Assembly: GCA_028684065.1 (NCBI GenBank) | Contig: JAQUGO010000008.1 | Coordinates: 83,832 to 147,831, forward strand | Source of the DNA: Sulfurospirillaceae bacterium | GTDB taxonomy: Bacteria > Campylobacterota > Campylobacteria > Campylobacterales > Sulfurospirillaceae | Length of the DNA stretch: 64,000 bases | Reading direction: 5' to 3' | Shown here: positions 4,628 through 9,290 of the stretch, one piece after another | Position numbering within the stretch: the first letter of the stretch is position 1 | Layout of the letters: every line of letters starts with the position of its first letter | Notes under the pieces: model-generated | What the model was told of the DNA's origin: nothing | Databases searched by the model: none | Seen by the model: only the letters and a program-made list of their open reading frames with translations | Translations under genes and position numbers: made by a program

Positions 4628-5314
4628 GGAAAAGTCTTTTTTATAGCGCAGAATTTCTTCTGTCTGCCCTATAACAACGAGGATGTCTCCAGCGTCAAGC
4701 TTATGGTTAAATCCCTCTGTGATAAAAATAAACTCTTTTTTGAGCTCTTTATCGTGAATGCCGACTAAGAGAAAATTATAAGCTTCATTAGGGTAGATGT
4801 CGTTAATCATATGGTGATTCAGTGGGGAATTTTCTGTAATGGTAATCTGTTCCATATTAAGGTCGTGGTAGCCAAAAACAGTCGCATCAATAACATTCAT
4901 CACATCAGGTTGGGTAATCAGTTTATAAATCTTCTTGCCACTGATTTGGTAGGGATCTAAGATCGTACTTGCCCCTGCAATTTCAAGTTTATGAATAGCG
5001 TCTTTCGTATGCGTAATAGCGATGACATGTAAAGAAGGGTCTAAGGCTTTTACAGAAAGAATTAAAAAAACGTTTTTGGCATCGTCATCAAACAGTGTAA
5101 AAATAAAATTAACATTTTCTCCAATACCTTCTTCTAAAAGTATATCATCTGTGTAATCTAAGATTTTAAGATTAAACCCTAGCTTCTCTGCTTGTGGAAG
5201 TAACGATGCATCGTTATCAATGAGTGTAAAGTTATAACCTTTTGCTTTAAGCTGAGAACTAATTTCTATGGCTGATTTGGTGAATCCAAAGATGAGTATT
5301 TTTTCTGTTTTCAT
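4622..5314 (-). CDS. RCK (TrkA-N/TrkA-C) domain protein, channel partner
   Basis: The 230-residue soluble protein has an N-terminal Rossmann-like RCK domain (residues 5-130) and a C-terminal TrkA-C domain (about 150-225, with the typical DAGDILVVIGQTEEI end). The nucleotide loop is degenerate: GFTKSA stands where a GxGxxG is expected, so NAD binding may be weak or lost. Its ATG overlaps the last four bases of the K+ channel gene. The likely role is a regulatory ring subunit for that channel, which already carries its own RCK domains. Confidence 0.85.
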   Translation of the reverse strand: MKTEKILIFGFTKSAIEISSQLKAKGYNFTLIDNDASLLPQAEKLGFNLKILDYTDDILLEEGIGENVNFIFTLFDDDAKNVFLILSVKALDPSLHVIAITHTKDAIHKLEIAGASTILDPYQISGKKIYKLITQPDVMNVIDATVFGYHDLNMEQITITENSPLNHHMINDIYPNEAYNFLLVGIHDKELKKEFIFITEGFNHKLDAGDILVVIGQTEEILRYKKDFSL

Positions 5315-6903
5315 TTGGGAGCTCTTTTATCACTATGTTTTTTAAGAAGATTAATATGGTGTCTTTTACCCATAATAATCAAAGTATCATCTTTGTGGAT
5401 GACAAAATCGCCTGGTGGATTAAAATAAAAGATTTTATCATCAATAGCATAGGTTAAAAGGGCGGTTGGCTCTACCTCTTCACGAACAACGCCAAAGAGA
5501 AGTAAACGTTTTTCCCTAAGCTCTAAGGTTGCAATTGTTTTATTGATGTATATGGATTTTTCATAAATTTTAAGGGATTCAAAAAGAACGCCCGTTGTTT
5601 CAGTTAACATATCATCAAGGGCAGCATATGAAATGGGTTGGTCGATGTATTGAGAACCCATGAGGCCAATGGTTTCATCGGCACTGAGTGCAAAGTTAGC
5701 ACCCGCTAGCATATATTTTTTCTTATGATAACTTTTAACCACGCGTGCAATAATATCAATCTCTTTACTGAGGCTTCGTGCAGTCATAGTAATAAAAACA
5801 TTCATTTCATCACTGTTGGTGACACAGATAACTTTAGAAGCACGTTTTCCCACTCCTAACTGTCCTAATAGTTTACTTTTTGAAGCATCACCAAGGATAC
5901 CAATCATTCCTCGTTGATTGGCTAACTTGATTTTTTCGGCATCTATATCAATAATAACGACGGCATAGCCATCATCGTGGAGCATTTTTGCAACGACTTC
6001 ACCAACTCTGCCATAGCCACAGACGAGAATATAACTTTTGAGTCGCTCAATATCCGCTAGGGTTCGACTGCTTTTAAGTTCTTGTAATTTTGTTTGAAAA
6101 GAAGAGACAATGATAGATGTTAAGAAAGCTAAGATAGCCACACCAAAGATAATTAAAATCATCGAAATAACCATACCTTCTTTGGTAACAGGTACAATAT
6201 CACCATAGCCAACGGTTCCCATCGTTACGATTGACCAGTATATAGCATCAAAAAGAGTATTGATTTTTGGGTTCACATTTGTTTCAAAGATGTAGATGGC
6301 AGAGCTTCCGGTGAAAATCACAAAACCTGCGAAAATGGCTAATGTAAAAAGTTCAAATTTTTTCTCAGATATAATCGTTGTAAATGTTTTCATACTCCTG
6401 GCATAGCGAAAGAGTTTAAAAATACGAAATAAAAGAAAAATACGCAAAAAACGAAGTGGTCTATAACTTGGCAAGATTGCCAATAAATCAATAATCGCTA
6501 GAGGTGAGATAATATATTCTATTTTTTTAGAAATAATGGTGTGCAATGTTTTAAAAAGCGAAAAAGAGGCATGGTTATTGAGGGCATATTCATAACGTTC
6601 GAGAAAAAGTTTATGACTATCGGAATAAATCCATAAACGTAAAAGATATTCGGTGATGAAGACAACAAGCGAAGCATTGATAAAAAAGTCCATAAACGGG
6701 TGTAAGTCTGGATTTTTAACTTCATAGAGCAAAAACAGCACGCTGAGTACGACTAAAATAACCATAAACAAGTCAAAATAAAATTTTAACTTAGATGTTG
6801 GGTGTTCGAGTAATGTTCTACAAAATTCTTTTGAACGACGATATTTTTTTGAGTGCTCCACAAAATAGGCAAAGCGTACTAATAGTGATACGATAAAGTC
6901 CAC
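5311..6903 (-). CDS. Voltage-gated-type K+ channel with C-terminal RCK domains
   Basis: The 530-residue protein starts at GTG 6903 with AAAAAAGG seven bases upstream. It has six membrane segments, an arginine-bearing S4-like helix (FLRIFLLFRIFKLFRYAR) and the selectivity filter TVGYGD. An intact RCK Rossmann motif VCGYGRVGEVV follows at about residue 290, then a TrkA-C-like end. It should conduct potassium across the inner membrane, gated by ligand or voltage. The adjacent RCK-only gene overlaps by four bases, suggesting a heteromeric gating ring. The gene follows the selenoprotein gene, separated by a hairpin. Confidence 0.9.
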   Translation of the reverse strand: MDFIVSLLVRFAYFVEHSKKYRRSKEFCRTLLEHPTSKLKFYFDLFMVILVVLSVLFLLYEVKNPDLHPFMDFFINASLVVFITEYLLRLWIYSDSHKLFLERYEYALNNHASFSLFKTLHTIISKKIEYIISPLAIIDLLAILPSYRPLRFLRIFLLFRIFKLFRYARSMKTFTTIISEKKFELFTLAIFAGFVIFTGSSAIYIFETNVNPKINTLFDAIYWSIVTMGTVGYGDIVPVTKEGMVISMILIIFGVAILAFLTSIIVSSFQTKLQELKSSRTLADIERLKSYILVCGYGRVGEVVAKMLHDDGYAVVIIDIDAEKIKLANQRGMIGILGDASKSKLLGQLGVGKRASKVICVTNSDEMNVFITMTARSLSKEIDIIARVVKSYHKKKYMLAGANFALSADETIGLMGSQYIDQPISYAALDDMLTETTGVLFESLKIYEKSIYINKTIATLELREKRLLLFGVVREEVEPTALLTYAIDDKIFYFNPPGDFVIHKDDTLIIMGKRHHINLLKKHSDKRAPK

Positions 6904-6926
6904 AGATAAACCTTTTTTGTGTACAA

Positions 6927-6950
6927 ATCCTCCTTCAATATAAGGAGGAT
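6927..6950 (-). terminator. Hairpin between the selenoprotein and K+ channel genes
   Basis: Nine-base arms (ATCCTCCTT and its complement) flank a six-base loop, four bases after the selenoprotein stop. There is no clean U run after the stem on the minus strand, so it may be a weak terminator or an RNA-processing site. Confidence 0.45.
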
Positions 6951-6954
6951 ACTT

Positions 6955-7200
6955 TTAATATCCAGCCGTTTTTAAGAGAGCCGTTATTTCTCCGACTTCA
7001 GGAAAGCGCTCAATAGGCGTTCCTATTTTTTCGGTTTTTGAGAAGATCAGCTTATCTTCCACCATAACATCGAAATAACCACCTCGTTTAGGAACGAGTA
7101 AAACTTGAGCGTCTGGGTATGCTCTTTCTATCTCATCTTTCGCACGGAAAGCTTTTGGCATATACCCTCACTTAGTACAGTAAAAAATAGTAAAATTCAT
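6955..7200 (-). CDS. SelW/Rdx-family selenoprotein with in-frame UGA (Sec11)
   Basis: Reading minus from ATG 7200, the frame gives MNFTIFYCTK, a UGA at 7170-7168, then GYMPKAFRAKDEI and on to a stop at 6955, 81 residues in all. The CxxU motif (C8, Sec11) sits at the N-terminal beta strand exactly where Rdx/SelW/SelT proteins carry CxxC or CxxU. The rest (GGYFDVMVEDKLIFSK, then ERFPEVGEI) matches that thioredoxin-like fold. AAGGAT precedes the ATG with normal spacing. A start at 7161, after the UGA, would remove the first strand and the redox motif and has no ribosome site. The role is probably a thiol redox protein. It follows the EAL-HDOD gene by nine bases, so they are likely co-transcribed. 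Confidence 0.88.
7137..7151 (-). promoter_or_regulatory. Candidate bacterial SECIS hairpin
   Basis: Beginning 17 bases after the UGA, the coding strand reads CUUUC-CGUGC-GAAAG: a five-pair stem with a five-base loop containing GU. Bacterial SECIS elements sit inside the coding region just after the UGA and carry G and U in the apical loop, for binding by SelB. Spacing and loop fit. The stem is short, so folding should be checked. Confidence 0.65.
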
Positions 7201-7209
7201 TGTAATCCT

Positions 7210-8448
7210 TTATTCTTTAGTATGATTGCTTTCTGTGACAAATATACTCGCTTTTGAGCATGCGAGCAGAAGATCTTCTTGCTTGAAACATGGTGCATGC
7301 GTAAGTCCTTGAATCATTGCCTCAATATCTTTAGAATGGTTCATTTCAATCGCAATATGTAAGAATTCACCTAATATTCCTTTGTGAAAAAGAAGAGCGT
7401 CTTTCATCTCTTGATCAAGATTAAGGTTCAGTAAAAATTCCTCCATAGGCATTGATAAATAAGCATCAAGAAGCGAAAGGCTACCTGTTAAAAATGCTTT
7501 ATTGGCTAATTCGTTATATCCGCAAAGGAGCGCTAATTCTTCCATCAATTTAGCTCGAAATTTCGCACTGTTAAAAAGTTCTTCTCCAAAAGGTTTTTTT
7601 TCAGGACTCTCATATAAAAACAAGCCTAACCAAGAGAGTAATTTAAGAGATCCCAATAAAGTTATCATCTGCTTTATATTGGTAATCTCAGTTCGAAAAT
7701 GGTATGCCCCAGAATTAAGGTGTCTTAGAAGATTATAGACAAGATCAGGACAAGTAGAAAGTTTTTGAGAGATAAAATTTGGATCATCATTTTCATAAAT
7801 ACAGTTCATCAGCCTGAGGGCATTCATCACATTAGGTTCAAATTTTTCTCCACTAACAATCATTGGCTTTTCAAAAAAGTAGCCTTGAAAAAATTTAAAA
7901 TGTAGTTTTTGACAGGTGATGTACTCTTCATAAGTTTCTATTTTTTCGGCCAATAGATCGATAGAATGGCGTTTGAGTTTTGCAATAGCATGACTTACAT
8001 TTTTTATGCCAAGTGCAAGAATATCAATTTTAATGATATCAATATAAGGGAAAAGAGGTTCAAAATCCCTCATTGTAGCATCTGAACAATCAAAATCATC
8101 TAGCGAAAAACGGTATCCAAGGGAATACATGTATTTAATACGCTCAATAAGCGCTAATGTAACACGAGTATACTCCAAAATTTCGAAGCGAAATTTGTCT
8201 TTGGGTAAGAGAAGTAGCGTGTCACTAAAGAGAATGGCTTCATCTACATTGACAAAACCTATTTTCTCTCCTAGGATAACATTGACCCCTAAGTTGTGTA
8301 CGAGATTGATAATAACACGTGCTGTGGCTAGGGCACTGTTCTCAAAAGTAGCAGCATTGTTAATATCACATGAACGGTATAAAAGTTCATAAGCAAAGCA
8401 CTGTTCGTGAATATTAAAAATAGGCTGTCTACCAATATACGTTATCAC
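7210..8448 (-). CDS. EAL-HDOD signalling protein (YuxH-like)
   Basis: The 412-residue protein has an N-terminal EAL-like domain (about 1-200) and a C-terminal HDOD domain (about 205-400). The EAL signature reads YELLYR and the usual DDFG is DDFD, and other metal ligands are not clear, so phosphodiesterase activity is doubtful. Proteins of this architecture usually act as signalling scaffolds. It has no membrane segment. It is the first gene before the selenoprotein. The intergenic stretch at 8449-8498 separates it from dppF and holds a TTATATT-rich region that may be its promoter. Confidence 0.85.
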   Translation of the reverse strand: MITYIGRQPIFNIHEQCFAYELLYRSCDINNAATFENSALATARVIINLVHNLGVNVILGEKIGFVNVDEAILFSDTLLLLPKDKFRFEILEYTRVTLALIERIKYMYSLGYRFSLDDFDCSDATMRDFEPLFPYIDIIKIDILALGIKNVSHAIAKLKRHSIDLLAEKIETYEEYITCQKLHFKFFQGYFFEKPMIVSGEKFEPNVMNALRLMNCIYENDDPNFISQKLSTCPDLVYNLLRHLNSGAYHFRTEITNIKQMITLLGSLKLLSWLGLFLYESPEKKPFGEELFNSAKFRAKLMEELALLCGYNELANKAFLTGSLSLLDAYLSMPMEEFLLNLNLDQEMKDALLFHKGILGEFLHIAIEMNHSKDIEAMIQGLTHAPCFKQEDLLLACSKASIFVTESNHTKE

Positions 8449-8498: not shown

Positions 8499-9290
8499 TT
8501 AAAAAGCAATTTTAGGAATAGCTTTTAATAAGGTTTGTGTATAAGAATGTTCAGGGTGTTCAAACAACTCTTCAACGCTCTTTTGCTCCACAATATCACC
8601 AAAATACATGACGATAATTCTATCGGAGATATGTTCAACAACACCTAAATCATGAGATATAAAAATATAGGTTAGGTTAAATTCTTGTTGTAAATCAAGT
8701 AATAAATTCAAAACTTGTGCCTGTATGGAAACATCTAATGCACTCACAGGTTCATCACAGACAATGACTTCAGGATTCAGGGCTAAAGCTCTTGCTATAC
8801 CAATTCTTTGGCGCTGACCACCAGAAAATTGATGGGGGTAACGCCAGTACCACTCTTCATTCAAGCCTACTTTTTTCATCAATGAATAGACTCTGTCCAA
8901 AATATCTTTATCACTCATATTCGTGTTAAGACGTAAAGGCTCTGAGATAATGGTCCCGACATTCCATCGTGGATTTAACGAAGAGTAAGGATCTTGAAAG
9001 ATGATTTGTACTTTTTTCCGGTATTCTTTCAGTTCTGCTGCTGTAAAAGTTGCAATATCTTTACCTTCAAATAAGATAGACCCACTGGTTGGCTCCTCAA
9101 TATTTAAAAGCATTTTAGCCGTGGTGGATTTGCCACAGCCGCTCTCTCCAACAATGCTTAAAATTTCTCCACGGGCAACATTGAAAGAGATACCATTGAC
9201 CGCTTTAATACTAAGAGGTTTGGCAAAAAGTCCTTTTTTAATGGTGTAGGCTTTGGTTAAATTTTTAATTTCAAAGATAGATTCACTCAT
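8499..9290 (-). CDS. dppF: Peptide ABC transporter ATP-binding protein DppF
   Basis: The 263-residue ATPase has Walker A GESGCGKST, the signature FSGGQRQRIGIARAL, Walker B VIVCDEPVSALD and the oligopeptide-transporter C-terminal extension (HPEHSYTQTLLKAIP). It energises import of short peptides through DppBC. It is the last gene of a five-gene operon in the order A-B-C-D-F, and its start overlaps the dppD stop by four bases. Nickel or opine substrates cannot be excluded for this family. Confidence 0.9.
   Translation of the reverse strand: MSESIFEIKNLTKAYTIKKGLFAKPLSIKAVNGISFNVARGEILSIVGESGCGKSTTAKMLLNIEEPTSGSILFEGKDIATFTAAELKEYRKKVQIIFQDPYSSLNPRWNVGTIISEPLRLNTNMSDKDILDRVYSLMKKVGLNEEWYWRYPHQFSGGQRQRIGIARALALNPEVIVCDEPVSALDVSIQAQVLNLLLDLQQEFNLTYIFISHDLGVVEHISDRIIVMYFGDIVEQKSVEELFEHPEHSYTQTLLKAIPKIAF

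Follow-up and report, generated by a model that had tools for sequence, protein, structure and literature searches.

The window (the whole 64,000-nucleotide stretch of DNA that was analyzed) carries a short minus-strand gene, selW, whose reading frame runs through a UGA codon and which directly follows a gene for an EAL-HDOD protein. The features of the locus are as follows.

7210 to 8448, minus strand: EAL-HDOD gene directly upstream of selW, with domains PF00563 and PF08668
7206 to 7209, minus strand: Shine-Dalgarno-like AGGA before ATG 7200, identified by eye
7200 to 6955, minus strand: selW, from ATG 7200 to TAA 6957-6955, 81 residues with UGA counted as selenocysteine (Sec), followed by the TAA
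7170 to 7168, minus strand: in-frame UGA, the predicted Sec codon, residue 11 in a CxxU motif
7151 to 7137, minus strand: SECIS-like apical hairpin CUUUC-CGUGC-GAAAG, stem 7151-7147 with 7141-7137, recognized by covariation
5311 to 6903: potassium channel gene with ion-channel and TrkA domains, downstream of selW

The preliminary description of this DNA had proposed a frame from ATG 7200 with one UGA at codon 11 after YCTK, which was confirmed by the translation of 7200-6955: the N-terminus around the UGA reads MNFTIFYCTK-U-GYMPKAFR, and there is no second TGA in frame. When TGA is treated as a stop, the list of open reading frames contains at selW only the truncated 68-residue frame (7161-6955), as had also been stated. 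The gene had been called hidden, which is correct only in part, given that NCBIfam families exist for such proteins and genes of this kind are described in the available parts of published reports. The Rdx-family assignment was borne out, with a match to PF10262 (Rdx/SelW) of 62.8 bits when the UGA is read as a residue (Pfam gathering cut-off, 22.6); the part after the UGA scores 37.7 bits by itself and rises to 62.8 with the part before it. selW also passes the cut-off of the NCBIfam model TIGR02174, CXXU_selWTH (48.1 bits; cut-off, 34.2) and, with U scored as C, narrowly misses the 88-bit equivalog cut-off of NF041051, SelTWH_Campy, at 84.7 bits; the match spans nearly all of both profiles. 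Within the C8-T-K-U11 motif, C8 and position 11 are invariant in 17 alignment rows, each of which has UGA at the latter position. A purine-rich stretch like AGGA was seen by eye before the start in 18 rows from the same genus.

A structure predicted from the 17-row alignment, with Sec modelled as Cys, had a mean pLDDT of 89.2 and a pTM of 0.79, and its elements follow the order strand-helix-strand-strand-strand-helix. C8 ends the first strand (residues 2 to 8) of this model, and residue 11 falls in the loop that leads into the first helix (residues 14 to 27). The best 20 PDB rows in Foldseek had E values of 8.4e-06 to 2.2e-04 and came from six entries, all of which were also recovered by sequence search (8 distinct chains). 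The predicted model, which is not a solved structure, and the Foldseek matches are consistent with a thioredoxin-like Rdx fold.

The UGA is kept in the best match of every genome in which we found the gene. Of 100 genomes searched, 37 (the source genome included) contain selW, and the best match in each of the 37 has a single TGA as its only in-frame stop. A sample of 298 genomes of the class, which overlaps the first set and is an even draw from a larger group, not a census, yielded matches in 95 genomes, and the best match had an in-frame TGA in 95 of 95; the one in genome G263 contains a TAA besides its single TGA. An in-frame UGA also occurs at 6 loci outside the class.

Three side observations concern individual copies. 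Loci L093 to L098 (five Desulfobulbaceae-type loci and one Gammaproteobacterium MAG) carry a UGA-containing selW with a hairpin of other letters. Three genomes of genus g37 (G319:C1:1266851-1267450, G223:C1:1241578-1242189, and G178:C1:1224550-1225191) have two adjacent SelW copies, and in two of these genomes a UGA copy is paired with a copy that has no in-frame stop; the stop-free copy is probably a Cys form. In the single-contig genome G014 (locus L047), the selW frame is broken in its second half, the second fragment being the 38th match of the 100-genome search, and this interruption may reflect true decay or a sequencing error.

The hairpin had been described as a CUUUC/GAAAG stem beginning 17 bases after the UGA, and we found it to start at the 17th base, with CUUUC at 7151-7147, the loop CGUGC, and GAAAG at 7141-7137. 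A single-sequence fold of 56 nt was no more stable than its shuffled versions (z, 0.94; 168 of 200 shuffles fold as well or better), so one sequence alone would not mark this hairpin as special, but comparison does. The covariation set comprised 28 loci of 30 fetched, giving 26 distinct rows and 130 cells, and every row forms all five pairs (100% of the 130 cells). Changes on both sides of a pair affect 12 cells and three of the five pairs. Pair 3 changes from UA to CG, pair 4 from UA to CG or UG, and pair 5 from CG to GC. The covariation score was reached by 0 of 500 shuffles and the figure of three pairs with two-sided changes by 6 of 500; the count of further pair types, one of five covariation measures, was unremarkable (reached by 118 of 500). 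Versions of the stem slid along the alignment paired in only 49 to 67% of cells, and RNAalifold recovered the identical stem. These shuffle tests are inflated by related sequences; differently spelled stems from separate phyla are independent of that kinship. The survey covered 30 of the 37 selW genomes and left out genomes found only in the 298-genome sample.

Across 51 UGA loci, 36 of them distinct, all 36 form 5 of 5 pairs at an equal distance from the UGA, including the five Desulfobulbaceae-type loci and the Gammaproteobacterium, in which letters of the stem or loop differ. The Cys homologues, in an alignment that the preliminary description had put forward, form only 0 to 2 pairs in 17 of 17 cases (12 Demequina, another actinomycete, 3 archaea, and SAR202), although these controls come from distant phyla and differ in base composition. 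A SECIS-like hairpin that is kept by compensatory change lies just after the UGA. An Rfam search over 6700-7500 returned nothing at the gathering score and two rows below it; bacterial SECIS families are not known to be in the Rfam library, and without them a missing match is expected. The stem also constrains the protein: F occurs with K, S with E, and L with R, combinations in which the stem stays paired, and F occurs with E too, through a U-G pair.

We considered that the functional protein could instead be the 68-residue product of the internal ATG at 7161, which lacks the Cys, with the upstream part serving as a leader. A GAGG that overlaps the UGA precedes this ATG by 4 nt, all 18 loci of the same genus retain both UGAGG and the ATG (the label Sulfurospirillum rests on contigs common to named records, e.g., Sulfurospirillum diekertiae and S. 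cavolei), and the 68-residue frame alone still matches Rdx at 37.7 bits. However, none of the 12 loci of other genera retains the internal ATG. A Leu or Arg codon stands in its place, which is TTG (a possible start) at 4 loci and not a start codon at the other 8, and UGAGG is not conserved in these 12 loci either. Codons 1 to 10 are under purifying selection, with a pN/pS of 0.26 compared to 0.25 after the UGA (16 same-genus genes, 120 pairs, uncorrected proportions). The selW start also abuts the upstream gene, lying from 4 bases inside to 21 bases past the EAL-HDOD stop in 18 of 18 same-genus loci, with a gap of at most 16 nt in 16 of the 18, and under an internal start the hairpin covariation would have no clear reason. 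We rejected this explanation, which we consider very unlikely, based on the loss of the ATG in other genera, the selection on codons 1 to 10, and the position of the start. A conserved start after the UGA had been named as a finding that would speak against a selenoprotein; all 18 same-genus loci have their start before it. Given that the internal ATG and GAGG are kept genus-wide, there is room for a minor internal-start product, which may exist within the genus.

The source genome (2.67 Mb, 99.94% complete) carries the genes of the Sec machinery. The absence of this machinery had likewise been named as a counterargument, and selA, selB, the tRNA-Sec gene, and selD were all found: selA, selB, and selD score 511.5, 297.9, and 355.8 bits, respectively, each above its cut-off, and tRNA-Sec scores 48.3 bits against a cut-off of 47, with the anticodon UCA. 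At least two formate dehydrogenase-like frames (C11:165415-166935 and C11:154802-156319) contain one TGA each; they score below the curated cut-off of the family model, which no row of 8 genomes reached. A stretch of about 37 kb on a single contig holds selA, selB, selD, and both formate dehydrogenase-like frames; tRNA-Sec is on another contig.

Among the genomes searched, selA was found in 32 of 37 with selW compared to 27 of 63 without it. It was not found in five selW genomes (G001, G007, G017, G036, and G040), of which all but G017 have tRNA-Sec above the cut-off and are drafts, 86 to 94% complete; selB was found only in G036 of the five, and selD in G001, G036, and G040. In G017 (MAG Sulfurospirillum sp. 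UBA2217; loci L038 and L084), which is 99% complete, selA, selB, tRNA-Sec, and selD were all below the cut-off or not found, and no TGA-bearing formate dehydrogenase-like row was among the matches listed. This genome keeps selW with its UGA and an intact covarying hairpin. G017 may truly have lost the trait, or its sel genes may fall in an assembly gap; a missing assembly piece is possible given that selA, selB, selD, and the formate dehydrogenase-like frames are clustered in the source genome. G018, which is 77% complete, has selA and selB and no tRNA-Sec above the cut-off, a case that calls for caution on absences of Sec genes.

That selW died recently, with the UGA a true stop mutation, could be argued from the later interruption of the frame in G014 and from G017, which seems to be without Sec machinery, but we rejected this extremely unlikely explanation because of the conservation of the UGA (all 95 class best matches and the 6 loci outside the class) and the low pN/pS. 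We likewise give almost no credence to the UGA being read as another residue through Trp or Cys suppression, which has no direct support beyond the point that a genome truly lacking Sec machinery (perhaps G017) would need something similar, and which is opposed by the presence of tRNA-Sec, SelA, SelB, and SelD and by a hairpin that UGA copies form and Cys copies do not.

The conservation of the UGA, the covariation of the hairpin, the machinery genes, the purifying selection before and after the UGA, and the gene order lead us to the reading of the UGA in selW as Sec, decoded by the cell's own machinery under the predicted guidance of the conserved hairpin, and we put the probability of this sequence-based prediction at about 95%. 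SelB carrying Sec-tRNA(UCA) would bind the loop of the hairpin as the ribosome arrives at the UGA. The product would be an 81-residue protein with a thioredoxin-like fold and a Cys-x-x-Sec site in the loop that joins the first strand to the first helix. To our knowledge, the biological role of bacterial SelW is not known; the predicted job of the protein encoded here is likely small thiol/selenol redox chemistry. The locus offers a clean comparative case in which UGA is coding and an RNA hairpin shapes the protein sequence.

The adjoining EAL-HDOD gene had been pointed out in the preliminary description, and we confirmed both domains; its stop and ATG 7200 are separated by 9 nt. The EAL-HDOD gene is adjacent to selW, upstream and on the same strand, in 18 of 18 same-genus loci, with gaps of -4 to 21 nt, and judging by this spacing the two genes are probably translated from one transcript. 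EAL-HDOD is found in none of 12 loci (about 3 kb each) from other genera of the same family, nor in 6 longer loci of 9.7 to 12.2 kb (L088 to L091, L101, and L104) from six of these twelve. The pairing thus holds throughout the genus loci examined and not in the family, and it says nothing certain on function. In genus g4, a DUF2333 gene is upstream of selW in place of EAL-HDOD in all three loci tested (e.g., L050, 553-1497), and in the other 6 loci the upstream protein has a similar C-terminus, as judged by eye.

A link between selW and the potassium channel gene was dropped, given that the same-genus loci L038 and L039 have no channel beside selW and keep EAL-HDOD. A 9-bp inverted repeat at 6927-6950, between selW and the channel gene, is terminator-like on the plus strand only; the minus-strand stretch around it folds with a z of -2.15. 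A relative of the ABC-ATPase-like gene at 8499-9290 (named by eye) is present in 7 of 9 g4 loci.

The EAL-HDOD neighbor, present in all same-genus loci examined, gives a concrete functional lead, and the modest interest of the locus comes from this neighbor and from the orphan case of G017. One could imagine a signalling pair in the Sulfurospirillum group, in which SelW, as the selenium-dependent member, would report a redox or selenium state and the EAL-HDOD protein (c-di-GMP type), produced along with it, would adjust its activity to that state, an idea that we regard as unlikely. A literature search for selenoprotein, EAL domain, and HDOD together found nothing, and a search for Sulfurospirillum with selenocysteine returned no title about SelW among those listed.

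The Rdx structures 2fa8, 2ojl, 2obk, 3dex, 2oka, and 2p0g have a fold like that of the predicted selW model (query TM score, 0.74 to 0.82) and share only 21 to 27% identity with it; their chains, we assume, carry Cys and not Sec. SelW-like selenoproteins are established in some bacteria, as had been claimed, according to the available parts of PMC4607533 and PMC11955535. The former reported SelW selenoproteins in Epsilonproteobacteria in 2015, some of them completely missed in annotation, and describes a common apical SECIS hairpin of 5/6 bp a few nucleotides after the UGA with an invariant loop G. The gene described here resembles these Sec-containing SelW genes in its apical hairpin after the UGA; the main text of PMC4607533, as far as available, does not mention Sulfurospirillum, EAL, or HDOD. 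In Campylobacter jejuni, a selW orthologue is mentioned in an intergenic transcript (PMC3847290, available part), and the accessible portion of PMC11955535 places selW on CJnc60, gives a length of about 80 residues, says that its UGA is read by tRNA-Sec, and in 2025 supported full-length translation with Ribo-seq and proteomics. Our selW is similar in its roughly 80 residues and in-frame UGA and may differ in being tightly paired with EAL-HDOD; the main text of that paper, in its accessible portion, does not mention HDOD. SELENOW-like proteins are listed as pfam10262 with CxxU in the available part of PMC9312934, and that of PMC1794560 reports very few or no Cys homologues of SelW-like proteins in Sec-containing organisms, which fits our class survey (UGA in 95 of 95). 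The selenoprotein reading is therefore not new in kind, such genes being already known in related bacteria; what appears to be new, from genome comparison, is that the Sulfurospirillum group has a SelW member and that this gene is closely paired with EAL-HDOD throughout the genus loci examined.
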